Of a stretch of 64,000 nt of DNA, positions 15,371 through 48,936 are shown one piece after another; the stretch's first letter is position 1; each line of letters opens with the position of its first letter. The stretch comes from Seonamhaeicola aphaedonensis (GTDB lineage Bacteria > Bacteroidota > Bacteroidia > Flavobacteriales > Flavobacteriaceae). The DNA is taken from NCBI RefSeq assembly GCF_003386195.1, contig NZ_QRDX01000006.1:1-64000 (forward strand), read 5' to 3'. Made by a program: the position numbers and the translations under genes. Under the pieces are notes generated by a model. That model made no database searches. It worked only from the letters and a program-made list of their open reading frames with translations, and was not told where the DNA came from.

Positions 15371-15391
15371 GACTTATCTTTTTAATTTTAA

Positions 15392-15700
15392 TTAAATACA
15401 ACTTTTAGGCTTTGGTACACCAGCTATTTTAGTTGAAACTTTTAACGGACCACCAGGGAATAAAGCATAAAATTGCTTTATGTCTATAACGCCACTTTTC
15501 TTAATTCCTCTTATTGACAAAGCGACTCCTTCATTCACTTTTTCTTGAATCCAATCTATAACTTGCCAATGACTATCGGTCATTTCAATATTATGCTCCT
15601 TGGCTATTTCTGTACCAATTTCTTTAGTCCACTGAGAGAAGTCTGTTAAATACCCTTCCTCATTAACATCAATTTCCGTTTGTGCTATTACTTTTTTCAT
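15392..15700 (-). CDS. TusE/DsrC-family sulfur carrier with a single C-terminal cysteine
   Basis: Small cytosolic sulfur carrier. The 102 residues carry the family core WTKEIGTEIAKEHNIEMTD and the C-terminal arm FPGGPLKVSTKIAGVPKPKSCI (written here in two overlapping parts in my reading). The penultimate C101 is the conserved active cysteine. The second DsrC cysteine, eleven residues earlier, is replaced by T90. Full DsrC acts with DsrAB through a two-cysteine trisulfide, while TusE needs only the last cysteine. So this is TusE-like chemistry in a sulfide-oxidation operon: it starts 12 nt after sqr and precedes dsrE. No dsrAB genes are present. Confidence 0.88.
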   Translation of the reverse strand: MKKVIAQTEIDVNEEGYLTDFSQWTKEIGTEIAKEHNIEMTDSHWQVIDWIQEKVNEGVALSIRGIKKSGVIDIKQFYALFPGGPLKVSTKIAGVPKPKSCI

Positions 15701-16945: not shown

Positions 16946-17003
16946 TTCTTTTTTTGATTTTGTTATGATTAAATTTGAAAAAAAATAACTTTTTAATCTT
17001 GGG

Positions 17004-17047
17004 TAAAATTACACCTAAACATTATTATAAAAAATGACAAAAGTCAT
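17004..17047 (-). promoter_or_regulatory. Promoter and Crp/Fnr-type operator of the sqr operon
   Basis: The perfect palindrome ATGACAAAAGTCAT (17034-17047) has its centre at 17040.5. On the minus strand the -7-like box TAATTTTA begins at 17011, 29.5 nt away. This places the operator at about -41.5, as at the other island promoters. Confidence 0.65.
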
Positions 17048-17058
17048 GTAAACCCTTA

Positions 17059-17074
17059 TGTAACAAAGGTTACA
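17059..17074. promoter_or_regulatory. Crp/Fnr-type operator between sqr and the FadL-type gene
   Basis: TGTAACAAAGGTTACA is a perfect 6-4-6 palindrome of the same class found upstream of the RND, DUF2202, cytochrome c and YeeE promoters. It lies between two divergent promoters that each have their own nearer palindrome, so it may serve both as a distal site. Confidence 0.65.
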
Positions 17075-17106
17075 CAAGGATTCTAGTTTTTATTTCAAGT
17101 CAAGAA

Positions 17107-17152
17107 TATGACAAAAATCATAGAAAAAAACATGCTGTTTAGATTAACTTTG
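17107..17152 (+). promoter_or_regulatory. Promoter and Crp/Fnr-type operator of the FadL-type porin gene
   Basis: TATGACAAAAATCATA (17107-17122) is followed by a perfect -7 box TAACTTTG at 17145-17152. The centre lies 30.5 nt before the first T, one more than at most island promoters. Confidence 0.6.
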
Positions 17153-17235
17153 AAACTATATTTTTTACTTAAACAAACATGAACCTTAAGTGCTATTTTA
17201 ATTTCATTTAGTTCGTGTCCTAAATACTTTCAATT

Positions 17236-18579
17236 ATGAAAACTAATTTTTTAAATTATCTGTTATTAATGTTTACAACAGCCGTTTTCTCTCAGGCAGG
17301 TCATATCATGCAAGGTGTAGGGGCCGTAAACATGTCTATGGGAGGCGCTTCTACGGCACAACCGCTAGATATTTCTGGTGCCATACAATGGAACCCTGCG
17401 ACTTTATCAACATTTGATGGTAAGATTATCAAACTAGATATAGGTTTATTCTTTTCATCACCAGAATTATCTTCTTCTTTACCACCAGGAATGTTAGGCG
17501 CTGGAGCACCTGCAGTAAGTGGAACAACGCAAGATGACAGAGGCATGTCTCCTATGCCTGCATTAGCCATGGTTTGGGGTAATGAGTCTAGTAAACACAC
17601 GTTTGGTGTTTCTGCTTTTGGTATTAGTGGTTTTGGGGTTACTTTTCCAGAAGAAGTAAATAATCCGTTAAGTTCAAGCTTTAACCCAATGGTAAATTCA
17701 AATCCAATTAATTACCCTCAACAAGCAAGAGGATTTGGCCATATAGAATCTGATTATATTCTATTGCAGGTGGGCTTATCATATGCTTATGAGATTACAG
17801 ATAAACTTTCTATTGGGATACAACCAAATATAGATTATGCTTCCTTAGAATTAATGCCTAATCCTACTGCAAACCCAAATAATTCTGGATACCCTTCTAC
17901 AAATAAAGCATCAGCTATAGGTTTTGGAGCTCAATTTGGATTGTTTTACGATTCAGGGATAGGACTTAAACTAGGTGCTTCTTATAAAACAACACAAAAA
18001 TTTAGCGATTTTGAATTTGAAAACACCTATATAGACAATTCTACAATTACTAGTGAGTTTGCTATGGATTATCCTGCCATTATTTCTTTAGGTGTAGGTT
18101 ATTCTAAAGGAGATATTGATTTGGCTCTTGATTTTAGACGTGTAGATTATGAAAATACCGATGGTTTCTCTATAACAGGATGGACTCAAACGGGTTCAGT
18201 AGCTGGATTTGGATGGGAGAATATCTCCATTCTTTCAGCAGGTATTCAATATAAAGGTATCAGCAAGTTACCCATAAGATTAGGTTATACCTACAGTTCA
18301 AATCCAATACCAGAAGAAGTAACTTTTTTTAATGTACCAGCTACAGCTATCATAAAAGATGCTTTCCAGTTTGGTTTGGGATACAAACTGAGTGAAAACT
18401 GGAATCTTGACGCCGTATTTCATTATGGTGATAGTGGAGACGCAACATCAGGACAGATGCTAAACCCAATGTTAGCATCTCCTTCAAACCCATTTGGAGC
18501 CATTCCTGGGTCATCTGTTTCATATGATATGACAACCTCTATGATTCAGTTTGGTATTAGCTATACATTTAACAAATAA
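17236..18579 (+). CDS. OmpP1/FadL/TodX family outer-membrane transporter
   Basis: Beta-barrel channel for hydrophobic substrates. The 447-residue protein begins with a signal peptide ending near AVFSQA. The family's N-terminal hatch follows: GHIMQGVGAVNMSMGGASTA, then GAIQWNPATLSTF with the conserved NPA. Many alternating strands follow, and the chain ends IQFGISYTFNK with the usual near-terminal Phe. It is divergent from sqr, with Crp/Fnr-type palindromes in the shared upstream region, and converges on the RND operon. In this context it could admit hydrophobic sulfur species or organic substrates whose export the RND pump balances. The substrate is a guess. Confidence 0.88.
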   Translation: MKTNFLNYLLLMFTTAVFSQAGHIMQGVGAVNMSMGGASTAQPLDISGAIQWNPATLSTFDGKIIKLDIGLFFSSPELSSSLPPGMLGAGAPAVSGTTQDDRGMSPMPALAMVWGNESSKHTFGVSAFGISGFGVTFPEEVNNPLSSSFNPMVNSNPINYPQQARGFGHIESDYILLQVGLSYAYEITDKLSIGIQPNIDYASLELMPNPTANPNNSGYPSTNKASAIGFGAQFGLFYDSGIGLKLGASYKTTQKFSDFEFENTYIDNSTITSEFAMDYPAIISLGVGYSKGDIDLALDFRRVDYENTDGFSITGWTQTGSVAGFGWENISILSAGIQYKGISKLPIRLGYTYSSNPIPEEVTFFNVPATAIIKDAFQFGLGYKLSENWNLDAVFHYGDSGDATSGQMLNPMLASPSNPFGAIPGSSVSYDMTTSMIQFGISYTFNK

Positions 18580-18598
18580 ATCATTTTATATATCTAAT

Positions 18599-18629
18599 AA
18601 AAAAGCAAGCTGAATTAGCTTGCTTTTTT
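18599..18629. terminator. Bidirectional terminator between the FadL-type gene and the RND operon
   Basis: Stem AGCAAGCT/AGCTTGCT (18604-18624) with a 5-nt loop, preceded by A-run and followed by T-run. It serves the two convergent units that end at 18579 (plus) and 18669 (minus). Confidence 0.8.
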
Positions 18630-18668
18630 GTGGTCAACTAAGACCTCTAAACTAATTATAAGGAATAA

Positions 18669-18857
18669 CTAATCCTTTACTTTAAATACTTTTTTTAAAA
18701 TGGTTTCCATAAGGCACCATTTAGTAATTCCTGATTGTAACAGGTTTACTCCCACAAAAGCAGTAAACCACAACCAATTGATGTTTACTTTTACAGCGAG
18801 AATCACACTTATTAAAACAAATGTTCCTGCAATAATTCTTATTAATCTATTTATCAT
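18669..18857 (-). CDS. DUF2892 small inner-membrane protein
   Basis: A 62-residue protein with two hydrophobic segments (residues 4-22 and 26-46), the DUF2892/YgaP-membrane-domain pattern: MINRLIRIIAGTFVLISV at the start, then WLWFTAFVGVNLLQSGIT and a final WC.....L. I use the ATG at 18857; a TTG 30 nt earlier would overlap the RND gene, whose stop is 8 nt upstream of the ATG. DUF2892 often occurs fused to or beside rhodaneses, so its position in a sulfur regulon fits. It is the last gene of the tolC-MFP-RND operon. The molecular role is unknown. Confidence 0.85.
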   Translation of the reverse strand: MINRLIRIIAGTFVLISVILAVKVNINWLWFTAFVGVNLLQSGITKWCLMETILKKVFKVKD

Positions 18858-18864
18858 AATGTTA

Positions 18865-21800
18865 TTATTTATAATTTTTACGCTCAATTAAATAGTATAC
18901 CAAAGGTACTACTAACAAGGTTAAAATAGTAGCTGTTATGGTACCTCCCATTAAAGAAATAGCCAGTCCTTGAAAAATTGGATCAAATAATATTACAAAG
19001 GCGCCAATTACAACGGTACCTGCGGTAAGTAATATAGGTGTTGTTCTAACTGCCCCTGCCTCGATAACTGCTTGTTTTAAAGGCGCACCTTCTGCCAACC
19101 TTAGATTTATGAAATCAATAAGTAAGACCGAATTCCGTACCATAATTCCCGCCAATGCAATCATTCCAATAAAGGAAGTAGCTGTAAAAAAAGCTCCCAA
19201 CATCCAATGTCCTAATACAATACCTACCATTGATAAAGGAATAGCTACCATCATTACAACAGGTGCTTTAAAGTTTTGAAACCATCCTACAATGAGCATA
19301 TAAATAATGATGATAACCCCTAAGAAAGCCACACCTAAGTCCCTAAATACCTCAAGCGTAATCTGCCATTCGCCATCCCATTTAACCGTATAATCATCTT
19401 CAAAATCAGGTTGTTTCATGTAAAGCTCATCTATTTTATAGCCTTCAGGAAGATTAATTGCTTTTAACTTATCTGCCATTCCTAAAATGGCATACGCTGG
19501 ACTCTCAAGTTCACCAGCCATATCTGCCATAACATAGACTACCCGTTTTTGATTTTTACGGTAAATACTCTTAACTCTTACTTGTTCTTTAATACTTACT
19601 AAATCGCCAACACTCATCATATTACCGTATTTAGTTTTTATTTGAAGTTGTGATAAATCTGTTAAAGTTGATTTATCCTTTTCATCTAATGCCAATACAA
19701 TTCCTACTTGTTCTGATGCTGTTTCTTTATATAATGTTGAAACTACATTATCACCCATAGCCAAGTTCATGGTGTATACTATTTGTTCTGGAGACACTCC
19801 ATACAACACAGCCTTTTCTTTATCTACCACAAACTCATATTCTGTTTGATTATCCTCAACCATCCAGTCAATATCCACAACATCTTGGGTGTTTCTTAAA
19901 ATATCTTGAACTTCATTAGCAACTTCAATTTGTTTATCATAATCCGGTCCATAAATCTCAGCCACTATGGTTGATAAAACTGGTGGTCCTGGCGGCACTT
20001 CAACAATTTTCACATTAGCATTAAACTTTGAGGCTATCTTTTGAATATCAGGACGCACTGATTTGGCTATATCATGGCTTTGTTCAGATCTATCATGCTT
20101 ATCGATTAAATTCACTTGAATATCGGCCATGTTACTACCTCCTCGTAAATCATAATGACGAACCAAACCGTTAAATGTTATTGGAGCCGAAGTCCCAACA
20201 TAGGTCTGATAATTCACAACCTCTGGTCTTGTAGATATATACTGGGCTATTTCTTGAGTAACAACTGCAGTGCGCTCTAAAGTAGTGCCTTCTGGCATAT
20301 CAATTACCACCTGAAATTCATTCTTATTATCAAACGGTAGCATTTTTACAGCAACCGATTTAGTAAAAAACATAGATAACGACCCCAATAATAAGACAAT
20401 GGTTATGCCTAAAAATACCCATCGCTTTGTTTTGCTTTCAATTAGCGGACGCTCAAATTTTTCATATATTTTATAAATGAAAGAGTCCTCCATCTTCTTT
20501 TCAATGGACTCTTTTCCTTTTTTTTCTTTTTCTCTCAAAAATAAGACTCCTAGATACGGTGTAATGGTTAAAGCTACAAATAATGATAATAACATAGCTA
20601 TAGAAGCCCCTATTGGCATTGGGCTCATGTAAGGCCCCATTAACCCAGACACAAATGCCATTGGTAACACAGAGGCTATCACAGTAAATGTTGCCAAAAT
20701 AGTTGGATTACCTACCTCATTAATAGCATACAATGCAGCCTCTTTAAAGGGTAGCTTTTTCATTTTAAAATGACGATGCATATTCTCTGCTATAATAATG
20801 GAATCATCAACCACTATACCTGTAACAAATACTAAAGCAAATAAGGTTATTCTATTTAATGTGTAATCTAACATGTAATAGCTTAACAAGGTCAAAGCAA
20901 ATGTAATAGGTACAGATAAAAACACTACCAAACCACCTCGCCACCCCATGGCTAGCATTACCACAAAAGTCACCGCTATAATTGCCCCAATAAGGTGCAT
21001 TAAGAGTTCAGATACTTTTTGTGAAGCTGTTTCACCATAATTTCGAGTAACCTCTACGTGAACATCGTCAGGAATTAACGTCTGTTTTAAATACGCTACT
21101 TTATCTAAAATAATATCGGATATTTTCATAGCATCGGCACCTTTTCGCTTTGCTATTGAAATAGTAACTGCAGGATATTCTGATTGATAAGCACCTGATT
21201 TTTCACTTGCTTGCCCAAACCCAAGAGACACATAACTTTTGGGTAATTCTGGACCATTAATTATGTTAGCTACCTGTTTGAGGTAAATAGGTTGGTTTTG
21301 CTGTATTCCAACCACTAAATTTTCTACATCTTCAATAGTTTCTAAAAACCTACCCGTAGTTACAAGAAATTCGGTATCTGCCCTATTAAATTTACCAGAA
21401 CTTAGCTGTTGATTGTTAGTTTGAATCATTTTAGACACCGATAAAAAATCCAATCCGCTAGCCGCCAATTTATCTTTATCAATTACTACGCGTAATTGAC
21501 GGTCTCTACCTCCTATTTTTTGAGTAATGGAAACATCATTGATTTTTTTTATTTCATTGTTTAGTTCATTAGCTATTTGTTTTAGCTGAAAATCATCATA
21601 ATTCTCACTCCACAACGTTAAACCTAACATGGGTACATCATCAATGGCTCTAGATTTTATTAAAGGCATGGTAACACCTTTTGGCATGATATCCATGTGC
21701 CGATTAATTTCATTGTAAAGCTTTACAAATGAACGCTCAATATCTTCGCCAACATAAAATTGAACAATTACCATTCCTTGTTCTTTCATAGAGGTTGAGT

Positions 21801-22056
21801 AAACATACTCTACACCTTTTATGTTAGATAGTAACTTTTCTAGTGGCTTTATTACTCTACTCTCAACCTCGGTAGGACTCGCTCCTGGATATCCTACAAA
21901 AATGTCTGCCATGGGCACATTTATTTGAGGCTCCTCCTCTCTAGGGATTAAAAACGAACTATACACCCCAATGACCATAAAAACAATCATAAGAAGTACC
22001 GTAAGCTTTGAATTTATAAAGCCCTTGGCTATTTTTCCTGCTAATCCTTCTTTCAT
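18865..22056 (-). CDS. RND efflux transporter permease subunit (AcrB superfamily)
   Basis: Inner-membrane proton-driven pump of a tripartite efflux system, 1063 residues. It shows the RND plan: a first helix (residues 15-35), a large periplasmic porter domain, and helices 2-6 with the proton-relay aspartates in VTGIVVDDSIIIAENM (about 410-425). A second porter domain follows, and then helices 8-12 with FIGMIALAGIMVRNSVLLIDF. The N-terminal VPMADIFVGYPGASPTEVE is typical of the NolG-like group rather than of AcrB itself. It lies between the adaptor gene and the DUF2892 gene. The promoter upstream of tolC carries a TGTAAC-type operator, so substrates may be sulfur compounds or thiol adducts; that is inference. 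Confidence 0.93.
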   Translation of the reverse strand: MKEGLAGKIAKGFINSKLTVLLMIVFMVIGVYSSFLIPREEEPQINVPMADIFVGYPGASPTEVESRVIKPLEKLLSNIKGVEYVYSTSMKEQGMVIVQFYVGEDIERSFVKLYNEINRHMDIMPKGVTMPLIKSRAIDDVPMLGLTLWSENYDDFQLKQIANELNNEIKKINDVSITQKIGGRDRQLRVVIDKDKLAASGLDFLSVSKMIQTNNQQLSSGKFNRADTEFLVTTGRFLETIEDVENLVVGIQQNQPIYLKQVANIINGPELPKSYVSLGFGQASEKSGAYQSEYPAVTISIAKRKGADAMKISDIILDKVAYLKQTLIPDDVHVEVTRNYGETASQKVSELLMHLIGAIIAVTFVVMLAMGWRGGLVVFLSVPITFALTLLSYYMLDYTLNRITLFALVFVTGIVVDDSIIIAENMHRHFKMKKLPFKEAALYAINEVGNPTILATFTVIASVLPMAFVSGLMGPYMSPMPIGASIAMLLSLFVALTITPYLGVLFLREKEKKGKESIEKKMEDSFIYKIYEKFERPLIESKTKRWVFLGITIVLLLGSLSMFFTKSVAVKMLPFDNKNEFQVVIDMPEGTTLERTAVVTQEIAQYISTRPEVVNYQTYVGTSAPITFNGLVRHYDLRGGSNMADIQVNLIDKHDRSEQSHDIAKSVRPDIQKIASKFNANVKIVEVPPGPPVLSTIVAEIYGPDYDKQIEVANEVQDILRNTQDVVDIDWMVEDNQTEYEFVVDKEKAVLYGVSPEQIVYTMNLAMGDNVVSTLYKETASEQVGIVLALDEKDKSTLTDLSQLQIKTKYGNMMSVGDLVSIKEQVRVKSIYRKNQKRVVYVMADMAGELESPAYAILGMADKLKAINLPEGYKIDELYMKQPDFEDDYTVKWDGEWQITLEVFRDLGVAFLGVIIIIYMLIVGWFQNFKAPVVMMVAIPLSMVGIVLGHWMLGAFFTATSFIGMIALAGIMVRNSVLLIDFINLRLAEGAPLKQAVIEAGAVRTTPILLTAGTVVIGAFVILFDPIFQGLAISLMGGTITATILTLLVVPLVYYLIERKNYK

Positions 22057-22063
22057 AATACAG

Positions 22064-23140
22064 TTATTGGATGGTTACTTTAGCGCCATTAAATAGTTTG
22101 GTTTCAGATGAAATAATGTAACTTTCCTCAGCGTTCAAACCAGATAAAACCTCTACTTTATCTCCATAAATTCTACCTAGCCTTAGCCAACGTAATAATG
22201 CAGTATTGCTTTGACTTACAGAATAAATACCAGACAACTCACCTTTTGTTACAAGGGCTGATATTGGAATTAAAATTGAATTAGAACTATCTGAGGCGTT
22301 GACAGGAAACTGAACTGTTGCAAACATTCCTGAAAGTAAATTAAGGTTTGTTTTTTCTAACATGACCTTGACTAAGTATTGTCCTCCAGTATTTTTAGCA
22401 GATGTACTTACTTCAACTACCTTTCCATTTATTAACGCATTTAAAGATTTTATTTGAACAACCACTTTAGTTTCATTCTTAATTTGAGAAATTTCGGTTT
22501 CAGGAACCATGGCAGCAACCTGAAATTCTCCCGGAGTTTCAATCTCTAACAACGGTATCCCTGGATTTGCAATATCACCTTCATTAATAAATTTATTGCT
22601 TACCACCCCGTTAAAAGGCGCTCTAATGTTAACGTAGCTAAACTGAGCCTCTATCTCCTTTTTCATTTGGTTTGCGGCCTCCAATCGTGCTTTAGCCATA
22701 TTGTAGTGCGCTGTGATATCATCTAATTCTTTTTGAGAGGCGCTATTGTTTTTAAACAAGTTAACAAACCTATGATAGTCTTTCTCTGTATTAGTGTAAG
22801 CTGCCTTAGCTTCAATAATACTTGCCTTTGCCTGTGCTAATTTTGCAGATAGATCATTGTTATTAATACTTAATAGTAATTGATCTTTAGTAACTTTATC
22901 ACCTATATTAATATGAATTTTACTTACATGTCCCATCATTCTAGTACTTAGGTTTGAACTCTTCAGGGCTTGTACTTTACCACTTACTGCTAGAAATTGA
23001 TTATCAATATTATCAACAACCTGTGCTACTTTAACCTTTATAGCTCTATCGTTACTTTTATTTTCTTGTTTATCGCTCCCACAACTTGATAAAATTAAAC
23101 CTGTTGCAATTAATGAAAGCCGAAATATATACTTCTTCAT
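22064..23140 (-). CDS. RND periplasmic adaptor (membrane fusion protein) lipoprotein
   Basis: Periplasmic adaptor linking the RND permease to TolC. The 358 residues start with a lipoprotein signal ending LILSSCGSDK, so it is lipid-anchored. The barrel-sandwich hybrid contains MGHVSKIHINIGDKVTKDQLL near residue 70 and APFNGVVSNKFINEGDIANPG near 175. An alpha-helical hairpin of about 60 residues lies between these two. A beta-barrel domain follows (VAAMVPETEISQIKNETKV). It lies 6 nt downstream of tolC and 7 nt upstream of the permease gene, so the three are co-transcribed. Confidence 0.92.
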   Translation of the reverse strand: MKKYIFRLSLIATGLILSSCGSDKQENKSNDRAIKVKVAQVVDNIDNQFLAVSGKVQALKSSNLSTRMMGHVSKIHINIGDKVTKDQLLLSINNNDLSAKLAQAKASIIEAKAAYTNTEKDYHRFVNLFKNNSASQKELDDITAHYNMAKARLEAANQMKKEIEAQFSYVNIRAPFNGVVSNKFINEGDIANPGIPLLEIETPGEFQVAAMVPETEISQIKNETKVVVQIKSLNALINGKVVEVSTSAKNTGGQYLVKVMLEKTNLNLLSGMFATVQFPVNASDSSNSILIPISALVTKGELSGIYSVSQSNTALLRWLRLGRIYGDKVEVLSGLNAEESYIISSETKLFNGAKVTIQ

Positions 23141-23146
23141 AGTGTT

Positions 23147-24454
23147 TTATTCTTTTGTTAAAAATTTCAAATAGGCTTGAGCATAGTTATACTCAAAAAT
23201 AGTTTGGTAGTATTCTAATTGTTTCTGTGCATATTTAGTTTCTGCCATTAACAAATCGGATGTTTTCTCAAGCCCTTCTTTAAATCTGTTTGTGAAAATT
23301 CTTAAAGATTCTTTAGATTGTTTTAAGGCCAATGCTGTTAAATCTAATGTGTTTTGAGCATCAGTTAACATGCGGTTTGCTTTGTTTAACTCTAAATTAC
23401 TTTGTGATACATATTGAGAATATTCCAGTCTAGACTTTTCAAATTCTGCTCTACTTTTTTGTGATTTAGCAATGCGTTTAGAACCCTGAAAAATGTCCCA
23501 GCTTAATTGAGCTCCAAACAAATAGCCATTAGCATCAGCTTGAAAAATTTGATCGTCATATAACTCATAACTCCCAAAAGCATTGAGCCTTGGTAGAAAA
23601 GCCATTTTATCTGCTTTGTAATTTGCTTGATAAGCTTCAGAAGCTAATCCCATAGCTTTAATATCAGATCGGTTTTCAGAAACGCGTTTATTTATTGTTG
23701 TCACACCAGACACTAACAAGCTATCAGTGGGTTTATAAATGGTATATGTATTGTCATTCATTAAAAACGAAAGGTAATTGGATGCATTTTCAACATTACT
23801 TTTAGCAGTCTGTAATTGGTTTTTAACTTCTGCTACCCTTACCTCAACATTTAAAACATCGGCTCTTTGTAAATAGCCTTGCTTAAAATTATCATCGGCT
23901 GTTTTTTTATTAGTCATAGCAGCTTCTAAAGCTTTTTCAAGTACTTCAACACCTTTATAAGCCAACTGTAATTGCATGTATGCTTTTTCTACTTCAAATT
24001 CTAAATATTGGGTAGTTCTTTCCTTTTTTAGAATCATAGCCTCCATTTTAGATTTAGCCGCTTTACGCTGATAAAACCCATCAACATTAATTAAAGGTTG
24101 TTTTATCTCTAATCGTGTTGCGAAATTTTCAATCTGTGATGGATCATTTAACAATGCTGGACTGAAATCGTTTTGTGTTAAAATTTCCTGATTTAATTTT
24201 GAACCAAAGGCCATTAAAGGATTTGTAGTGGCTATTCCCGTATGACTTGCCGTAATACTTGGAAGAAATACTGCGTTGGTTTGTCTAAAATCTGCTCTTG
24301 CTTGATTAAATTCTTCATTAGAAATTTTAATAGATAAATTACTATCTGAGACTTTAGATAAGACGTTTGCTTTAGTTATTAAAACTACTTCCTGAGCTTG
24401 TAGCAAGGGACTGCCAATAAATGACATCGTTAAAAAGATTATTATCTTTTTCAT
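23147..24454 (-). CDS. TolC family outer-membrane efflux protein
   Basis: Outer-membrane exit duct of the RND system. The 435-residue protein has a signal peptide ending near LLQAQE. It then shows two repeats of long amphipathic helices rich in Ala, Gln and Lys (for example QLAYKGVEVLEKALEAAMTN) and short barrel strands (FLPRLNAFGSYELYDD and GYLFGAQLSWDIFQG). The last helix ends in YAQAYLKFLTKE. It is first in the four-gene operon tolC-adaptor-permease-DUF2892. Its leader is about 110 nt long and holds a terminator-like hairpin (24502-24531), and a Crp/Fnr-type operator lies at the promoter. Confidence 0.92.
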   Translation of the reverse strand: MKKIIIFLTMSFIGSPLLQAQEVVLITKANVLSKVSDSNLSIKISNEEFNQARADFRQTNAVFLPSITASHTGIATTNPLMAFGSKLNQEILTQNDFSPALLNDPSQIENFATRLEIKQPLINVDGFYQRKAAKSKMEAMILKKERTTQYLEFEVEKAYMQLQLAYKGVEVLEKALEAAMTNKKTADDNFKQGYLQRADVLNVEVRVAEVKNQLQTAKSNVENASNYLSFLMNDNTYTIYKPTDSLLVSGVTTINKRVSENRSDIKAMGLASEAYQANYKADKMAFLPRLNAFGSYELYDDQIFQADANGYLFGAQLSWDIFQGSKRIAKSQKSRAEFEKSRLEYSQYVSQSNLELNKANRMLTDAQNTLDLTALALKQSKESLRIFTNRFKEGLEKTSDLLMAETKYAQKQLEYYQTIFEYNYAQAYLKFLTKE

Positions 24455-24501
24455 GTGTTTATTTCTTATTTTAAAATATTTGGATGTAACCCCTTATAAA
24501 T

Positions 24502-24531
24502 AAAAGAAGCATAGTTTTATTGAGCTTCTTT
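24502..24531 (-). terminator. Terminator-like hairpin inside the leader of the RND operon
   Basis: A 9-bp perfect stem AAAAGAAGC/GCTTCTTTT with a 13-nt loop is followed on the minus strand by ATTTAT. It lies between the predicted start of transcription (about 24565) and the tolC ATG at 24454. It could end transcripts coming from the DUF2202 gene, or attenuate the RND operon. Confidence 0.45.
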
Positions 24532-24569
24532 TAATTATGTTGACTGTGTTAAACTCAAATTTATTGGTG

Positions 24570-24614
24570 CAAAAATAGAGTAGTCTTTTGGGTAAGTTTG
24601 TAACATAGGTTACA
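24570..24614 (-). promoter_or_regulatory. Promoter and Crp/Fnr-type operator of the tolC-RND operon
   Basis: TGTAACATAGGTTACA (24599-24614, a perfect 6-4-6 palindrome) precedes the minus-strand -7 box TATTTTTG, whose first T is at 24577. The centre-to-box distance is 29.5 nt, giving an operator position near -41.5. Confidence 0.75.
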
Positions 24615-24637
24615 GCAATAAACACGTATTGAATGTT

Positions 24638-25289
24638 CTATTGACCACACTTTTCTTGACTACCGTTAATGATGCTGGAATATTCAGTAATACTTAAATA
24701 TTGAGGAGTGTAAGTATCTCCGCTCGTTTCTATAGCTTTCACAAAACTTCTCAAATGGTTTCTGGATCCACATTGCAAATTTTTAAACACAGAGACTATG
24801 GATGAATTAGACATTTTATCTATAAAATTTTGAAGGTCAATAATGTCTAGATCTTCTATTGTCGCCCCAATCTGTAGCGCTTTTGATTTACTAGTGGTGC
24901 CATTAGTTTTAAATTCATCATATAAAGCTTGAAGTTCTTGATTATTAAATTCACCATAAGGTAAAATGGTGTACTCAATATCATTGTTTTCCAATAAACT
25001 TACAATGCATTCATATGCGTTTGCTCACTTTGTTTATATTATTAAATTGATTTATAGACCATAAATCACCTAAAAACGAGTAAGTATCTCTCGCTAATTT
25101 TTCTTCTTCAAGCATAAAGAGGAGAGCATCTTTATCTTCATTACTAAAAGTGTCATCTTGTTTAGTAATATCTTCTTGAATAATGTCATCTTGAAGAATA
25201 TTCTGATCATCAGAACCGCTACTACAGCTTAGAATAGAAAGTGTTAGTATTATTATTAATAAGCTACTAGGTATAAATGAGTTTTTCAT
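24638..25289 (-). pseudogene. DUF2202 lipoprotein gene broken by two single-base deletions
   Basis: The first part (25289 downstream) encodes a lipoprotein signal ending LSILSCSSGS and the DUF2202 start LLFMLEEEKLARDTYSFLGDLW. The second part continues with YGEFNNQELQALYDEF, GATIEDLDIIDLQNF and GSRNHLRSFVKAIE, all DUF2202 signatures. The reading breaks at about 25029, where AAAGTGAG needs one more A to give Lys-Ser-Glu. It breaks again at about 25005, where AATGCATTG needs one more A to give Asn-Ala-Ile-Val. With both bases restored the protein is continuous. DUF2202 domains resemble ferritin-like bundles with a metal-binding LEEEKLAR helix. It is either a recent pseudogene or an error in the assembled sequence. 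It keeps an intact promoter with an operator. Confidence 0.85.
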
Positions 25290-25314
25290 TCTATTAAGGT
25301 TTTAAATTATAAAG

Positions 25315-25359
25315 TAAAGGTATGCTATCACTCAACAATGGGTAGTAACCAATGTTACA
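25315..25359 (-). promoter_or_regulatory. Promoter and Crp/Fnr-type operator of the DUF2202 gene
   Basis: AGTAACCAATGTTACA (25344-25359) matches TGTAAC-N4-GTTACA with one end mismatch. The minus-strand box TACCTTTA starts at 25322, 29.5 nt from the centre, identical to the tolC promoter. Confidence 0.65.
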
Positions 25360-25379
25360 TAAACAAAGAGTTCGCAAAG

Positions 25380-25407
25380 AAAAAAGCACCTGTAAATAGG
25401 TGCTTTT
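25380..25407 (-). terminator. Terminator of the cytochrome c gene
   Basis: A 10-bp stem AAAAGCACCT/AGGTGCTTTT with a 6-nt loop, followed on the minus strand by further T residues. It lies about 160 bp past the cytochrome c stop codon, leaving a long 3' untranslated region. Confidence 0.7.
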
Positions 25408-25430
25408 AACTATCAACCAAAAACCAAACA

Positions 25431-25487
25431 TCTTTACCTTATTGGCTAGCCTATAAGGCCTCCTTTAAATAATAAAATATGTAAAGA
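25431..25487. repeat. Unexplained inverted repeat in the long 3' region of the cytochrome c transcript
   Basis: A 22-bp near-perfect palindrome spans 25437-25458 (arm CCTTAT, centre GGCTAGCC, one T/T mismatch on each side). It is flanked by a second pair of complementary arms, TCTTTAC at 25431-25437 and GTAAAGA at 25481-25487. It lies between the cytochrome c stop and its terminator, so the RNA could fold into a compact structure. The role is unknown. Confidence 0.4.
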
Positions 25488-25564
25488 TAACTTACAGGTT
25501 TGTAAACCCCTCAAGTAAAAATGCTATTAATTAGTTCAGGGGGGTTGCCTTAAGAATGAACTAT

Positions 25565-26032
25565 CTAAATTTGTTTTCCGTTTCGCATTGGAAATCCTTT
25601 TCTTTTTTCTTCATTGTAATGTTCATCAAACCATACTGGTTTTTCTATATCATAATCGAAAATATAATCTGAAATTTGTTTTAAATCTTCTTTTGAAACC
25701 AATAGTTTAGGCATAACACCAAACCTTCTTACTGCCCCATACATTCTTGCATTATCTTCAGTTTGATTATCAAACCAATTCTGTATATCTTCCACAAACT
25801 CCGCTTTGTTAGTATGAGCTGCTACATAATGTTTTTTTACGGCAATCATGGGAGGTGCTAACCTTTGTTCATGACTAGCAGTAGGACTATGACAAACATT
25901 GCATTGACGTTCCATTAAAACTTTACCCGGGTGCTCCTCTTGATAAGTACTTTCAATGGCATAGGATGATTTTTTTGAATCTTGACAGCCAATAAGAAAT
26001 GCTAATAAAATTAATGGAACTAAAGGCTTCAT
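25565..26032 (-). CDS. Cytochrome c lipoprotein, monohaem
   Basis: Periplasm-facing electron carrier, 155 residues. The lipoprotein signal ends AFLIGC at C16. A single haem motif C44-N-V-C47-H48 follows. A probable axial methionine lies in RFGVMPKLLVSKEDL near residue 108, and the helix ISDYIFDYD closes the fold. Such small cytochromes accept electrons from thiol- or sulfur-oxidising enzymes, among others. It is a single gene with its own TGTAAC-type operator and promoter, next to the tRNA and the regulator gene, so it belongs to the sulfur island by control as well as position. The electron donor is not evident. Confidence 0.88.
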   Translation of the reverse strand: MKPLVPLILLAFLIGCQDSKKSSYAIESTYQEEHPGKVLMERQCNVCHSPTASHEQRLAPPMIAVKKHYVAAHTNKAEFVEDIQNWFDNQTEDNARMYGAVRRFGVMPKLLVSKEDLKQISDYIFDYDIEKPVWFDEHYNEEKRKGFPMRNGKQI

Positions 26033-26049
26033 AAGTTAAATTTCAAAGG

Positions 26050-26094
26050 CAAATGTAACTTTATGAGATACTAAAACATGTAACAAATGTTACA
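26050..26094 (-). promoter_or_regulatory. Promoter and Crp/Fnr-type operator of the cytochrome c gene
   Basis: TGTAACAAATGTTACA (26079-26094) is a perfect 6-4-6 palindrome. The minus-strand -7 box TACATTTG (first T at 26057) matches TAnnTTTG exactly and lies 29.5 nt from the centre. Confidence 0.75.
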
Positions 26095-26110
26095 ATAACT
26101 AAACACAAAA

Positions 26111-26140
26111 AAACCCACAAACTTTTTAGTTTATGGGTTT
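26111..26140 (-). terminator. Terminator of the tRNA-Arg gene
   Basis: A 13-bp stem (arms 26111-26123 and 26128-26140, one G-U pair) with a 4-nt loop, followed on the minus strand by a T-run. It starts 2 nt after the tRNA 3' end. Confidence 0.75.
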
Positions 26141-26142
26141 TA

Positions 26143-26219
26143 TGGTGACCACGGCAGGATTCAAACCTGCAACCTCTTGAGCCGTAATCAAGTGCGCTAT
26201 TCAGTTGCGCCACGTGGCC
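26143..26219 (-). tRNA. tRNA-Arg (anticodon ACG)
   Basis: The minus strand folds as a 77-nt tRNA. The acceptor arm GGCCACG pairs with CGTGGTC. The D-arm stem is GCGC/GCGC, and the anticodon stem CTTGA/TCAAG encloses loop TTACGGC with anticodon ACG. The T arm GCAGG/CCTGC encloses TTTGAAT. The 3' CCA is encoded, and A34 should become inosine to read CGN codons. Confidence 0.93.
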
Positions 26220-26289
26220 TTTTTTGTGCGTGCAAATATACTATTTATTAAAACTATACCAAACTATTTATTTCAAATTTATAAATGCT

Positions 26290-26297
26290 TATTTTTG
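26290..26297 (+). promoter_or_regulatory. -7 box immediately upstream of the Crp/Fnr gene
   Basis: TATTTTTG matches TAnnTTTG exactly and ends 5 nt before the ATG at 26302. The transcript would be leaderless or nearly so. No palindrome lies 29.5 nt upstream, so the regulator seems not to activate itself. Confidence 0.5.
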
Positions 26298-26301
26298 AAA
26301 C

Positions 26302-26937
26302 ATGACAAAAGAAATACTTTACCAAAAATTTGGCTACGTACTCGATGATAGCTTAATAAATGAAATTATAAATGTTGGAGTTTTTAAATCTTTTTCTAAA
26401 GATGATATCATAATTGATATTAATCAACCTATGCTCTATATTCCCCTATTGTTAAAAGGACATATCAAGATTTTAAGAGAAGACAATGAAGGTAATGAAC
26501 TACTTATCTATTTTTTAGAAGCTGGTGAAACCTGTACCATGTCTCTTACCTGTTGCATGGGTAAATCAAAAAGTAAAATAAGAGCTGTAGCAGAACAAGA
26601 TTCTGATTTAATAATGATTCCTGTTCAAAAAATGAAAGAATGGTTTCACGGGAATGAGAGTTGGCGGAACTTTATTATTGAAAGCTATCAAATACGTTTT
26701 GATGAAATGTTAGATGCAATAGATAGTATTGCTTTTTTAAAAATGGATGAACGGTTATACAAATATCTAGTTAACAAGTCAATGCTAAATGAATCTGCAA
26801 CTCTGTTGATAAAACATCAAGAAATTGCCGAAGATCTACATACCTCTCGTGTAGTAATATCAAGGCTCTTAAAACAGCTTGAAAATGAGAAGAAAATAAC
26901 ACTTGGAAGAAACAAAATTGAAGTTATTTCTAATTAG
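26302..26937 (+). CDS. Crp/Fnr family transcriptional regulator with a C-x5-CC motif
   Basis: The 211-residue protein has an N-terminal cyclic-nucleotide-binding-type barrel, a dimerisation helix near 120-145, and a C-terminal winged helix with KHQEIAEDLHTSRVVISRLL. It carries neither an FNR iron-sulfur cluster pattern nor the CRP cAMP-site arginine-serine pair. Instead C78, C84 and C85 lie together in GETCTMSLTCCMGKS in the loop where effectors usually bind. In the recognition helix R183 and R188 match CRP R180 and R185, but V184 replaces E181. This fits operators reading TGTAA rather than TGTGA. It sits at the centre of the sulfur island and is the likely activator of its TGTAAC-type promoters. 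Persulfide sensing by the cysteines is my inference. Confidence 0.9.
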   Translation: MTKEILYQKFGYVLDDSLINEIINVGVFKSFSKDDIIIDINQPMLYIPLLLKGHIKILREDNEGNELLIYFLEAGETCTMSLTCCMGKSKSKIRAVAEQDSDLIMIPVQKMKEWFHGNESWRNFIIESYQIRFDEMLDAIDSIAFLKMDERLYKYLVNKSMLNESATLLIKHQEIAEDLHTSRVVISRLLKQLENEKKITLGRNKIEVISN

Positions 26938-26980
26938 GTAACATTTGTTACATAACAGATTTAACAGCGTTATACTTTTA
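26937..26980 (+). promoter_or_regulatory. Promoter and Crp/Fnr-type operator of the YeeE/YedE-TauE operon
   Basis: GTAACATTTGTTAC (core 26938-26951) is a perfect palindrome starting at the last base of the regulator's stop codon. The -7-like box TACTTTTA (26973-26980) has its first T 28.5 nt from the centre, one less than at most sites. The ATG follows at 26997. Confidence 0.65.
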
Positions 26981-26996
26981 CAAAAATTAAGAAAAA

Positions 26997-27560
26997 ATGG
27001 AATTTATTTTAAACCCATGGCCATGGTACATATCAGGGCCACTAATAGCATTTGTAATGGCTATTTTGCTTTACTTTGGCAAAACGTTTGGTATGTCATC
27101 TAGCTTAAAAACTATGTGTTCAGCTCTAGGCGCCAACAAAATCTCAGATTTTTTTAAGTTTAATTGGAAAGACCAAAGGTGGAATCTCACTATCGTTTTA
27201 GGTGCGATTATTGGTGGGTTCATTGCCTCTCAATACCTTTCAAATGATATCCCAACAGATTTAAATCCAACCACTATAACAGAATTACAACAAATGGGAT
27301 TTGAAAATCCAGGAGCTACTTTAGTACCTAATGAAATATTTAGTTTAGAGAGTTTAACCTCAATAAAACCCATTATACTACTTATTATTGGCGGTTTATT
27401 AGTAGGCTTTGGAACGCGCTACGCAAGCGGCTGTACCTCTGGTCATGCCATTACTGGACTTAGTAGTTTACAAAAGCAGTCATTAATTGCTGTCATAGGA
27501 TTTTTTATTGGCGGGTTGATTATGACTAACTTTATTTTACCATTAATCTTCAAAACATGA
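26997..27560 (+). CDS. YeeE/YedE family sulfur transporter subunit (PmpA/TsuA-like N half)
   Basis: Inner-membrane protein of the YeeE/YedE family, known in other bacteria for thiosulfate or sulfur-ion uptake. The 187 residues have about five hydrophobic segments and the signature GFGTRYASGCTSGHAITGL, with C146 as the conserved channel cysteine. The family usually has two such halves. Here they are split into this protein and the next, whose start codon overlaps this stop by 4 nt. It is the first gene of the operon with the second half and a TauE-type exporter, under a TGTAAC-type operator. Confidence 0.88.
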   Translation: MEFILNPWPWYISGPLIAFVMAILLYFGKTFGMSSSLKTMCSALGANKISDFFKFNWKDQRWNLTIVLGAIIGGFIASQYLSNDIPTDLNPTTITELQQMGFENPGATLVPNEIFSLESLTSIKPIILLIIGGLLVGFGTRYASGCTSGHAITGLSSLQKQSLIAVIGFFIGGLIMTNFILPLIFKT

Positions 27561-27970
27561 AATATTTAAAATTTTTATTGGTTGGCATTTTCTTCGGAAT
27601 AGTTTTAGTAAAATCAGAAGCTGTTTCATGGTTTCGGATTTATGAAATGTTTAGATTTCAATCATTTCATATGTATGGTATCATAGGTACAGCCATAGCA
27701 ACAGGGTTATTATTTTTACAAATTTCAAAAAGAAAACATCTAAAAAATATTATAGGTGAACAAATAGATGCCCCAAAAAAAGAAGAGGGATTTATAAGGT
27801 TTATAGTTGGGGGTTCTATTTTTGGCTTGGGTTGGGCCCTTATTGGAGCGTGTCCAGGACCTATGTATATCTTGTTAGGAACAGGTATTTACAGCATGAT
27901 TATTGTTATTATTGCTGCTTTATTAGGTACATTCATCTATGGGATTTTAAAAAGTAAGTTACCCCATTAA
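27557..27970 (+). CDS. YeeE/YedE family sulfur transporter subunit (PmpB-like second half)
   Basis: The partner half of the split YeeE/YedE transporter, 137 residues with about four membrane segments. The signature GSIFGLGWALIGACPGPMYIL holds C99, the second conserved cysteine of this family. The start overlaps the previous gene (ATGA at 27557-27560), which implies translational coupling and a fixed ratio. It is followed directly by the TauE-type gene. By analogy with two-domain YeeE proteins the pair should pass a sulfur compound such as thiosulfate; direction and substrate are not proven by sequence. Confidence 0.87.
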   Translation: MKYLKFLLVGIFFGIVLVKSEAVSWFRIYEMFRFQSFHMYGIIGTAIATGLLFLQISKRKHLKNIIGEQIDAPKKEEGFIRFIVGGSIFGLGWALIGACPGPMYILLGTGIYSMIIVIIAALLGTFIYGILKSKLPH

Positions 27971-28765
27971 ATGGATAACACCCAAATATTAGGATATTTA
28001 GGAGCTTTAGTTGTTGGGCTGGTATTAGGTCTTATAGGTGGTGGTGGGTCTATACTAACGGTACCCTTATTAGTGTATCTTCTAGGATACAATCCCATAG
28101 TAGCGACGGCGTATTCTTTATTTGTAGTTGGCACGACATCATTAGTAGGAACCTTTCAAAAATATAGGGAAGGCCTTGTAGATATTAAGACTGGTTTAGC
28201 TTTTTCATTTCCTTCATTTGTCGCAGTTTATTTATCGCGAAGGTATTTAGTTCCCAGTATTCCCAACACCTTATTAAGCACCAGTGGCTTTACACTTACC
28301 AAAGAAATGGGCATCATGGTATTCTTTTCTATTATCATGCTTTTGGCAGCCGTTTCAATGATAAAAAACAAAAACGACAATAGTGTACCAACAAGTAAAC
28401 AAGCTTATTATAAAACATTCATTCAAGGACTGACTATTGGAACTATAACTGGAATTATTGGTGCAGGTGGTGGGTTTCTTTATGTTCCTGCTTTAGTACT
28501 GTGGGCAAATATACCAATGAAAAAAGCTGTGGGTACCTCATTAATTATAGTAACTATTAATTCCCTCATTGGATTTACAGGAGATGTGCAAACTTTGGAT
28601 ATTGAGTGGACTTTTCTGATACTATTCTCATTGATATCAGTATTGGGTATTTTGATTGGAGTCTATCTTTCAAAATTTATAAGTGGTGAAAAATTAAAAA
28701 AAAGCTTTGGGGTTTTCACGCTCATAATGGCTATATACATTGTTTACCGAGAAATAAGTACGTAA
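27971..28765 (+). CDS. TauE/SafE family anion exporter
   Basis: Inner-membrane protein of the sulfite/organosulfonate exporter family, 264 residues, about eight membrane segments. Both repeats carry the glycine-rich signature: LVLGLIGGGGSILTVPLLVYLLGYNP near residue 18, and IGTITGIIGAGGGFLYVPALVLW near 158. The start follows the previous stop directly. With sulfide oxidation and a persulfide dioxygenase in the same regulon, which yield sulfite, export of sulfite is the simplest role. This would remove the toxic end product. Confidence 0.88.
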   Translation: MDNTQILGYLGALVVGLVLGLIGGGGSILTVPLLVYLLGYNPIVATAYSLFVVGTTSLVGTFQKYREGLVDIKTGLAFSFPSFVAVYLSRRYLVPSIPNTLLSTSGFTLTKEMGIMVFFSIIMLLAAVSMIKNKNDNSVPTSKQAYYKTFIQGLTIGTITGIIGAGGGFLYVPALVLWANIPMKKAVGTSLIIVTINSLIGFTGDVQTLDIEWTFLILFSLISVLGILIGVYLSKFISGEKLKKSFGVFTLIMAIYIVYREIST

Positions 28766-28767
28766 CT

Positions 28768-28813
28768 ATGTGACAAATATCACATTACATATCTATAAGG
28801 TTTAGTAATTTTG
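28768..28813 (+). promoter_or_regulatory. Promoter and Crp-type operator of the MBL-rhodanese gene
   Basis: ATGTGACAAATATCACAT (28768-28785) contains TGTGA-N6-TCACA, the classical CRP consensus. The -7 box TAATTTTG (28806-28813) is a perfect match and its first T lies 29.5 nt from the centre. Confidence 0.75.
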
Positions 28814-48891: not shown

Positions 48892-48936
48892 TAAAGTTAG
48901 AATTTAAACACTAGAAAAACTATGACAAAAATCATG
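48892..48936 (-). promoter_or_regulatory. Promoter and Crp/Fnr-type operator of the tonB-family gene
   Basis: ATGACAAAAATCAT (48922-48935) has its centre at 48928.5. On the minus strand the -7-like box TAACTTTA starts at 48899, 29.5 nt away, again giving an operator near -41.5. Confidence 0.6.

Follow-up and report, generated by a model that had tools for sequence, protein, structure and literature searches.

The sulfur island of Seonamhaeicola aphaedonensis appears to be served by two Crp/Fnr-type activators at class II sites, one of which, encoded at 26302–26937, would read the palindrome GTAAC-N4-GTTAC (type A; TGTAAC-N4-GTTACA in its long form), and we give this overall reading a probability of about 0.77. 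Motifs, spacing, conservation, co-occurrence and target functions were computed, starting from the window, a stretch of 64,000 nucleotides (positions 1 to 64,000 of contig NZ_QRDX01000006.1). It had been proposed that one factor, or two, activates the whole island; activation of the Crp/Fnr type stood up, while a single island-wide regulon with one motif did not. Since type A sites track the 26302 regulator and a second palindrome, TGAY-N4-RTCA (type B, mostly ATGAC-N4-RTCAT), belongs to a genome-wide FNR-like set, at least two factors seem to be called for, and the patterns suggest that a dedicated sulfur activator and an oxygen-type activator read these switches.

All seven palindromes of the original prediction were found together with their TAnnTTTR boxes (Table 1). 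Measured from the first T of the box to the palindrome centre, the spacing is 29.5 nt at five of them (sqr, tolC, DUF2202 and cytochrome c, all on the minus strand, and MBL-rhodanese on the plus strand), 28.5 nt at YeeE and 30.5 nt at fadL, both on the plus strand. Such a repetition had been called improbable by chance, and indeed at least five of seven at 29.5 has P = 2.7e-11 in dinucleotide-preserving shuffles of the 100 nt downstream of each site, a value conditional on the earlier reader's choice of sites. At class II promoters of E. coli CRP and FNR the palindrome has its centre at -41.5, ahead of a -10/-7 type box; the island promoters would share this layout, with the differences that the Bacteroidota TAnnTTTR box replaces the hexamers and that two palindrome types occur in one island. 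The flavobacterial -7 box occupies -12 to -5, with its first T at -12 in F. psychrophilum (PMC9723704), so that centres 29.5 nt away, as reckoned from the box, would fall at -41.5, the class II activator position. Class II activation by Crp/Fnr-type factors is thereby a well-supported prediction, drawing on spacing, conservation in relatives and box position. A further core with a spacing of 29.5 (46880–46891) lies within the open frame 45924–47267 and was taken as chance.

Table 1. Genes, palindromes and -7 boxes of the sulfur island (window coordinates; spacings in nt from first T of box to palindrome centre)
Feature	Position	Strand	Remarks
Sulfide:quinone reductase (sqr)	15713..16945	-	NCBIfam NF049943, 651 bits (cut-off 525)
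-7 box of sqr	17004..17011	-	TAATTTTA
Type B palindrome (FNR-like) of sqr	17035..17046	-	box at 29.5
Extra exact type A palindrome between sqr and fadL sites	17059..17074		
Type B palindrome of fadL	17109..17120	+	box at 30.5
-7 box of fadL	17145..17152	+	TAACTTTG
FadL-type outer membrane protein	17236..18579	+	PF03349
RND pump, HlyD adaptor, TolC-type channel	18865..24454	-	PF00873, PF16576, PF02321
-7 box of tolC	24570..24577	-	TATTTTTG
Type A palindrome, tolC-hlyD-RND	24599..24614	-	exact TGTAAC-N4-GTTACA, box at 29.5
-7 box of DUF2202 gene	25315..25322	-	TACCTTTA
Type A palindrome, DUF2202 gene	25344..25359	-	1 mismatch, box at 29.5
Cytochrome c-like protein	25565..26032	-	CNVCH haem motif read in sequence
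-7 box of cytochrome c-like gene	26050..26057	-	TACATTTG
Type A palindrome, cytochrome c-like gene	26079..26094	-	exact, box at 29.5
Crp/Fnr-type regulator, 211 aa	26302..26937	+	proposed reader of type A sites
Type A palindrome, YeeE-YeeE-TauE genes	26937..26952	+	1 mismatch, box at 28.5
-7 box of yeeE	26973..26980	+	TACTTTTA
YeeE-type pair and TauE/SafE permease	26997..28765	+	PF04143 (first), PF01925 (third)
Hybrid palindrome, MBL-rhodanese gene	28769..28784	+	TGTGAC-AAAT-ATCACA, box at 29.5
-7 box of MBL-rhodanese gene	28806..28813	+	TAATTTTG
MBL-rhodanese protein	28837..30246	+	PF00753, PF00581

A genome-wide scan for GTAAC-N4-GTTAC with a box gave seven matches against none for the pattern read backward; three stand at 29.5 and one at 28.5, and these four are those of the island, to which exact type A at this spacing is confined in this genome. 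The weaker core TAAC-N4-GTTA has no overall excess in the genome (27 matches against 25 for the backward control), so that the signal requires the longer half-sites, and type A targets outside the island are not claimed. Among relatives, 80 loci chosen because they carry the regulator encoded at 26302 hold 155 type A sites (0–1 mismatch), with a box at 29.5 in 117, at 28.5 in 15 and at 30.5 in four; every other offset from 20.5 to 44.5 holds at most three of the 155, and the maximum elsewhere up to 120 nt is seven. For a reversed control motif (120 sites with 0–2 mismatches, box in the TAnnTTTG form) the peak is eight. The spacers of the 136 box pairings at 28.5–30.5 form 93 clusters at 60% identity (85 at 29.5). 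Exact type A sites number 29 in 1.596 Mb around regulator genes, where ten control motifs gave 0 or 1 each, and 79 of the 155 sites are at most 1 kb away from the regulator gene. Chance was rejected on the strength of the shuffles, the spacing histograms, the control motifs and the clustering of the spacers.

The genes preceded by type A sites in these relatives are tolC/RND, cytochrome c, YeeE, TauE and MBL-rhodanese. Rhodanese, MBL and TauE account for 32, 25 and 24 of 128 genes behind type A promoters, against 4, 4 and 2 of 120 control genes in the same loci, an enrichment that is partly a neighbourhood effect of loci chosen by their regulator, which the in-locus control reduces and does not remove. 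Counted over orthologs of at least 38% identity, window copy included, a site with its box precedes tolC in 9/9, tauE in 27/52, cytochrome c in 19/28 and yeeE in 17/31, and 46 of 53 MBL-rhodanese promoters carry a site (31 type A, 15 relaxed); ortholog promoters of yeeE2 (31), hlyD (8), rnd (7) and two flanking genes (16 and 15) carry none. The DUF2202 site is present in one relative (L024) too. The YeeE palindrome starts on the final base of the regulator gene, and in 52 of the 80 loci a type A site with a box lies in the stretch from 60 nt upstream to 150 nt downstream of the stop codon of the regulator. As to gene names, Pfam and NCBIfam gave no match for the cytochrome c-like copy of the window, and the second YeeE, for which NCBIfam gave none, is named after its neighbour.

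The 26302 protein is a member of the Crp/Fnr superfamily: Pfam domains PF00027 (33.8 bits) and PF13545 (32.6 bits) both exceed their cut-offs, and Foldseek matches it to CRP, NtcA and GlxR structures. It had been put forward as the factor to assay, and for type A sites co-occurrence and clustering bear out this candidate. Of the 158 genomes in which the regulator has a match at E <= 1e-40, a cut chosen after the lists were inspected, 142 contain motif and box together, as do 7 of the other 41 (Fisher 2e-19); if every match at E <= 0.001 is accepted the counts are 147/173 against 2/26, and phylum-wide, in a partly overlapping genome set, 19/28 (E <= 1e-50) against 15/219. The exact motif with its box is missing in 16 of the 158 strong-match genomes, 11 of which hold closer orthologs (E below 1e-80), so that the exact box appears often to be relaxed near the window's own clade. 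General autoregulation was rejected, an upstream type A site with a box being found in just 5 of 81 copies.

The recognition helix of the protein reads TSRVVISR, and all 81 close orthologs have Val at the position of CRP Glu181; this genome encodes five other Crp/Fnr proteins, four of them with Glu there, the exception (C7:127911) having Pro in a helix SRPTLN. Beyond close orthologs this helix rule is loose, the motif occurring in the genomes of three of the eight distant relatives that have Val and of one of the 12 that have Glu. Cys78 and Cys84 of the ligand domain are present in 81/81 close orthologs and Cys85 in 80/81, all three presumably, from the sequence, at the place where CRP binds cAMP. 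All 20 distant relatives keep Cys78, whereas Cys84 and Cys85 occur together in 11, Cys84 without Cys85 in three and neither in six, one of which still has the motif in its genome, so that a sulfur sensor with three cysteines is not established. The best match among solved-structure sequences, 3dv8 from Eubacterium rectale (1e-22 with a profile), is a Crp/Fnr protein that likewise has Cys at the Cys78 and Cys84 positions, and differs in lacking Cys85 and in having Glu in the recognition helix.

The MBL-rhodanese site had been placed in the TGAC group. Its ortholog promoters grade from TGTGAC-N4-GTCACA through mixed forms to TGTAAC-N4-GTTACN, from which it is better understood as a type A site that has diverged, with the 26302 factor as its probable reader. 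It is unlikely that a CRP-like paralog (C1:736756-737340) reads it instead, even with a helix that keeps Arg-Glu-Arg like CRP and a gene that ends at a GTGAC-N4-GTCAC class II site, one of only two exact matches in this genome (the other being that of MBL-rhodanese), since the gradation into type A speaks against it, as do the GTGAC-type sites that 12 genomes have no more than 3 kb from a 26302 ortholog. These belong to the 13 of 50 directed GTGAC-N4-RTCAC class II matches with a regulator ortholog at most 3 kb away (12 palindromes, 12 genomes), and they look like mostly one orthologous promoter, hence not independent cases.

Type B sites have another distribution. TGAC-N4-RTCA with a box gives 27 matches in this genome over 31 allowed gaps, against 11 for the backward pattern, of which 14 stand at 29.5 and two at 30.5, and only three of these 16 TGAC-first sites fall in the island, the hybrid among them. 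Others precede pyruvate formate-lyase, pta, the cbb3 oxidase and other genes, and type B may be taken as a genome-wide FNR-like set that includes sqr and fadL. Not all 16 are real, because C10:31787 lies inside an opposite-strand frame and no clear gene follows C1:708598. FNR regulons have in common with this set the TGAY-N4-RTCA core before anaerobic or microaerobic genes, here of fermentation and oxidase function, and an N-terminal CxxC Crp/Fnr protein, here adjoining the cbb3 genes; C7:186830 and C9:10190 are the candidate FNR proteins. The differences are the outer bases, here mostly ATGAC...RTCAT and not TTGAT...ATCAA, and the spacing to the Bacteroidota -7 box. That the 26302 factor alone, with relaxed specificity, reads both types and controls the whole island would explain why A and B share one spacing there and why the hybrid is intermediate in sequence, but it is improbable, given that type B is spread over fermentation and oxidase genes of the whole genome, whereas exact, correctly spaced type A is confined to the island.

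The region shared by sqr and fadL, where the two types are neighbours and relatives keep each of them distinct, also argues against a single factor. Its order is B-A-B. The type B palindrome of sqr is conserved in two relatives (L026 and L028), in which that of fadL has a spacing of 29.5; the type A palindrome in the middle is identical in L024, L026 and L028, and has no box within 60 nt on either strand. Lying 26 nt beyond the type B site of sqr, its centre falls at -67.5 from sqr and -90.5 from fadL, which is a class II distance to neither, and the distance to fadL varies by 9 nt among relatives. A class I role is unsupported by this variation and by a position of -67.5, out of phase with the usual class I positions. 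Because a conserved type A site stands between their type B sites, sqr and fadL are probably co-controlled.

The half-sites of type A are those of the HcpR2 consensus GTAACnnnnGTTAC, whose regulons share the GTAAC-N4-GTTAC box (PMC1274295); the regulator might then belong to the HcpR2 group and the regulon respond to nitric oxide or nitrosative stress, not to sulfur. We consider this quite unlikely. It is sulfur genes that are targeted, this genome contains no gene for a hybrid cluster protein (no Prismane match), the protein has Val in place of the helix Pro reported for HcpR2 in PMC1274295, and none of the 32 solved-structure sequences matched at E <= 1e-5 is named HcpR; membership in HcpR was rejected on the missing hcp and the helix residue. 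The three ligand-domain cysteines are a further difference from HcpR2. The palindromes could instead be repressor sites overlapping the -33 region, as a factor bound around -41.5 would span roughly -49 to -34 and might obstruct polymerase, but this is very improbable: the conserved spacing fits activator-dependent promoters, the right half-site fills -39 to -34, where a -33 element would begin, and the consensus of the 137 listed promoter rows holds no other conserved element. Least probable is that C7:127911 reads type A, its HcpR2-type Pro fitting a GTAAC box by the rule in PMC1274295, since type A sites cluster around and co-occur with 26302 orthologs, and the 5 kb around the C7 gene hold no site of the scanned kind.

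Returning to two activators, we infer binding, activation rather than repression, and signal as follows. The palindromes would be Crp/Fnr-type activator sites at about -41.5 on sigma-A promoters in which a -7 box is present and a -33 element has no space. The 26302 factor would bind type A and activate the tolC-RND, DUF2202, cytochrome c and YeeE-TauE units (the last from -40.5), and MBL-rhodanese through the hybrid site; with Cys78, Cys84 and Cys85 it may sense redox state or reactive sulfur, the latter being perhaps the signal. An FNR-like regulator encoded elsewhere would bind TGAY-N4-RTCA across the genome, including sites at -41.5 of sqr and -42.5 of fadL (-41.5 in two relatives).

Persulfide-responsive SqrR, BigR, CstR and FisR control sqr, sulfur dioxygenase/rhodanese and YeeE/TauE-type genes, and are of ArsR, CsoR or sigma-54 type; the 26302 protein differs in its Crp/Fnr fold and apparent role as an activator. 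To our knowledge, such control of sulfur genes has been described mainly for regulators of those three types, and titles and abstract openings in the literature searched name no Crp/Fnr regulator of Bacteroidota sulfur genes, which is weak evidence of absence. A more tentative proposal, which we hold to be possible and rather doubtful, makes the 26302 protein the founder of a flavobacterial Crp/Fnr group that senses persulfide or polysulfide by a three-cysteine ligand site and runs a class II regulon for sulfide detoxification and sulfur export, RND pump included, with sqr and fadL under the joint control of sulfur and an FNR-like oxygen sensor. If true, the finding would name the missing regulator of sulfide oxidation across Flavobacteriaceae, a large group made up mainly of marine heterotrophs, tie a conserved RND pump to sulfur metabolism, and provide an exact, testable promoter grammar for a phylum in which, as far as we know, few activator sites have been mapped.

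The seven palindromes that the original prediction had placed at a fixed distance from a TAnnTTTR -7 box were all found, each with its box and at the spacing claimed (first T of the box to palindrome centre); the observation holds and is a strong one. When the bases downstream of each site were shuffled with dinucleotides preserved (4000 rounds each), a box fell at 29.5 nt with a probability of 0.0025 to 0.008 per site. This gives P = 2.7e-11 for at least five of the seven sites at 29.5 nt and P = 3.1e-14 for all seven within 28.5–30.5 nt, values conditional on sites chosen by the prediction itself, and such spacing is indeed improbable by chance. Within the window, the core TAAC-N4-GTTA of the type A site (GTAAC-N4-GTTAC, in full TGTAAC-N4-GTTACA) is present 14 times; its boxes lie at 29.5 nt in four cases (one within an open frame), at 28.5 in one, and at 43.5 and 55.5 in one each. 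The FNR-like type B core TGAY-N4-RTCA is present 16 times over both strands, and its downstream boxes lie at 29.5 nt in three cases, at 30.5 in one and at 19.5 in one. One minus-strand FNR-like site with its box at 29.5 nt stands ahead of a TonB_C-domain gene.

The genome spans 3.51 Mb in 41 contigs, and the window opens contig C6. The island's SQR matches NCBIfam NF049943 (a selenoprotein subtype by name) with 651 bits, and the frame of the window copy is unbroken; the DsrC/TusE and DsrE2-like genes immediately after sqr suggest a sulfur relay that SQR may supply. The DUF2202 gene, behind a palindrome site, is a single open frame of 217 aa in the relative's locus L024, and its split in the window reflects either breakage of the gene or faulty assembly. 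The RND-HlyD-TolC set is found again near the regulator in distant genera, with a site before tolC every time and an RND subunit identity of 81–84% in loci L061, L069, L074, L077 and L095; its substrate could be a sulfur species.

Genes and sites of the island and of other stretches of the genome (L121, L123 and L128, from contigs C1, C2 and C7 of G000)
Feature	Coordinates	Remarks
DsrC/TusE-family protein and DsrE2-like protein	14897–15700	former above cut-off, latter below curated cut-off
sqr (sulfide:quinone reductase)	15713–16945	type III SQR model match
sqr-side block	17034–17074	41 nt: B site, next 11 nt, A site
fadL		
RND-HlyD-TolC set	18865–24454	
DUF2202 gene	24638–25289	split: two frames (92 aa and 118 aa), each matching DUF2202
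cytochrome c-like gene		
Crp/Fnr regulator	26302–26937 (+)	211 aa
YeeE-type and TauE-type transporters		
MBL-rhodanese gene		
TonB_C-domain gene	48140–48871	
FNR-like site	48923–48934 (-)	
CRP-like paralog	L121:8245–8871	31% identity to regulator
receiver-Crp fusion	L123:3242–4282	cNMP-binding and helix-turn-helix domains
C7:127911 protein	L128:2397–3068	Crp/Fnr family

A contig search with the 26302 regulator gave 245 relatives, of which the best 80 (53–95% identity) were kept as loci L024–L103. Exact type A sites number 29 in the 1.596 Mb of these loci, where ten control motifs have 0 or 1 apiece; at up to one mismatch the counts are 155 and 1 to 12. A box lies at exactly 29.5 nt in 117 of the 155, at 28.5 in 15 and at 30.5 in 4. 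The spacers of the 136 pairings at 28.5–30.5 nt fall into 93 clusters at 60% identity, and the column consensus holds the palindrome, the -7 box, some A positions after the box and nothing else. In F. psychrophilum, mapped start sites set the sigma-A box at -12 to -5 (PMC9723704), which would put the palindrome centres at -41.5 and the right half-site at -39 to -34, the start of where a -33 element would be. The fixed spacing matches the class II geometry of Crp/Fnr activators, and is in itself expected once a regulator of this kind is assumed.

An open frame could be placed behind 129 of the 136 pairings, and the 128 distinct frames were all scanned beside 120 drawn at random from the 1284 other frames of the same loci. 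Among the 25 commonest families, rhodanese (32 target versus 4 control frames), MBL (25 versus 4), TauE (24 versus 2) and YeeE (8 versus 5) were accompanied in the targets by cbb3-type cytochrome c (15), Tll0287-like (14), cytochrome bd (7), and NrfD, SulP and Pyr_redox_2 (5 each). With the window counted and 38% identity as the lower limit for a copy, site and box stand upstream of tolC in 9/9, MBL-rhodanese in 46/53 (31 type A, 15 relaxed), tauE in 27/52, cytochrome c in 19/28 and yeeE in 17/31, and upstream of none of 31 yeeE2, 8 hlyD and 7 rnd copies or of two flanking genes (16 and 15 copies). In L024–L039 tauE comes after yeeE2, which is also the order in the window. Like the window, 52 of the 80 loci have a type A site and its box in the interval from 60 nt upstream to 150 nt downstream of the regulator stop codon.

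Exact TGTAAC-N4-GTTACA has three copies in the 3.5 Mb genome, all inside the island; allowing one mismatch raises the number to 24, five of them in the island, compared with 13 for the reversed pattern. With 31 gaps permitted, GTAAC-N4-GTTAC plus box has seven genome matches, the four at 28.5–29.5 nt being island promoters. Of 199 family genomes, 149 carry motif and box and 173 the regulator (any match at E <= 0.001); the motif is present in 147/173 genomes with the regulator versus 2/26 without, six genomes being scored as without by their absence from the match list. At E <= 1e-40, a cut chosen after the lists were seen, the counts are 142/158 versus 7/41. Sixteen strong-match genomes lack the exact motif, and 11 of them belong to the closer orthologs (E below 1e-80); some of the window's own neighbourhood therefore has a relaxed form of the box. 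In a phylum set of 247 genomes, partly the same ones, the motif accompanies the regulator (E <= 1e-50) in 19/28 versus 15/219.

The recognition helix TSRVVISR carries Val at the position of CRP Glu181 in 81/81 close orthologs; among 20 more distant relatives, the genome holds the motif in 3/8 with Val and 1/12 with Glu, so the residue is suggestive, not decisive. Four of the other five Crp/Fnr proteins of the genome have Glu there and the C7:127911 protein has Pro. The latter is a rival reader of type A sites because a change to Pro is tied, in PMC1274295, to the HcpR2 box GTAAC-N4-GTTAC, but it is disfavoured by the clustering of type A sites near 26302 orthologs. The genome that encodes it has no hcp.

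The 26302 factor probably also reads the window's MBL-rhodanese site, TGTGAC-AAAT-ATCACA, which several closer relatives carry as TGTGAC-N4-RTCACA. Mixed forms (TGTGAT-N4-GTTACA in L033, TGTAAT-N4-GTCACA in L035, TGTAAC-N4-GTCACA in L079) link it to the strict form of other genera. Class II sites of the form GTGAC-N4-RTCAC occur in 36/149 genomes, and at least 13 of 50 directed matches, from 12 palindromes of 12 genomes, have one of the listed regulator orthologs no more than 3 kb away. These favour a shared factor, although they are not independent, since most look like one orthologous promoter. The CRP-like paralog on L121 has its own GTGAC-N4-GTCAC class II site at the gene end, before a YgaP-like membrane protein gene.

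The genome-wide scan for motif plus spacing gave 27 matches for TGAC-N4-RTCA with box versus 11 for the backward pattern, at gaps of 29.5 (14), 30.5 (2) and elsewhere (11), a lower bound because the pattern matches only TGAC-first sites and passes over TGAT-first ones such as 48923. Three of the 16 sites at 29.5–30.5 nt are in the island, and the gene surroundings of all 13 others were inspected. Scanned genes behind type B sites include those for phosphate acetyltransferase, pyruvate formate-lyase, the fused cbb3 oxidase CcoNO, MoeA, a multihaem-cytochrome-like protein, a receiver-Crp fusion protein, a Thioredoxin_9 protein, an EF-G-like protein, a CitMHS-type permease and a YgaP-like membrane protein; acetate kinase, formate-lyase activase and a sensor kinase were named from sequence reading alone. 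Two of the 13 lack a convincing gene downstream, and another has only a small unscanned one. Together the sites make up an anaerobic or microaerobic set of FNR type. Six PF13545 proteins are encoded in the genome, among them the 26302 regulator; a Crp/Fnr gene with an N-terminal CxxC shares its stretch with CcoNO, and the fusion on L123, behind a type B site, joins a receiver domain to a full Crp protein. The proposal of one factor, or two, over the island probably comes down to at least two, with two regulons of which the type B set extends genome-wide with FNR-type genes.

The two meet between sqr and fadL, where the order B-A-B recurs in the window, L024, L026 and L028, and 39 columns of the sqr-side block, with A and B centres 26 nt apart, are invariant across the four sequences. 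The middle A site is at class II distance from neither gene, and we read the arrangement as probable dual control of sqr and fadL.

AlphaFold2 gives the 26302 regulator a confident Crp/Fnr fold (mean pLDDT 91.6, pTM 0.73), the nearest structures including T. thermophilus CRP, 3dv8, GlxR and NtcA. Its Cys78, Cys84 and Cys85 presumably map, by sequence, to the cAMP phosphate-binding region of CRP. Cys78 and Cys84 are present in 81/81 close orthologs and Cys85 in 80/81, and of 20 distant relatives all keep Cys78, whereas 11 have both Cys84 and Cys85, 3 have only Cys84 of the two and 6 have neither; 3dv8 carries Cys at the positions of Cys78 and Cys84. Because of the target genes, reactive sulfur is the likeliest signal, and sensing via an iron-sulfur cluster, haem or a plain thiol switch is possible. 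The content seems new: a sulfur regulon conserved in flavobacteria that uses a box like that of HcpR2, its likely regulator with a three-cysteine pocket, the RND pump as a repeat member, and sqr and fadL as genes where it overlaps an FNR-like regulon.
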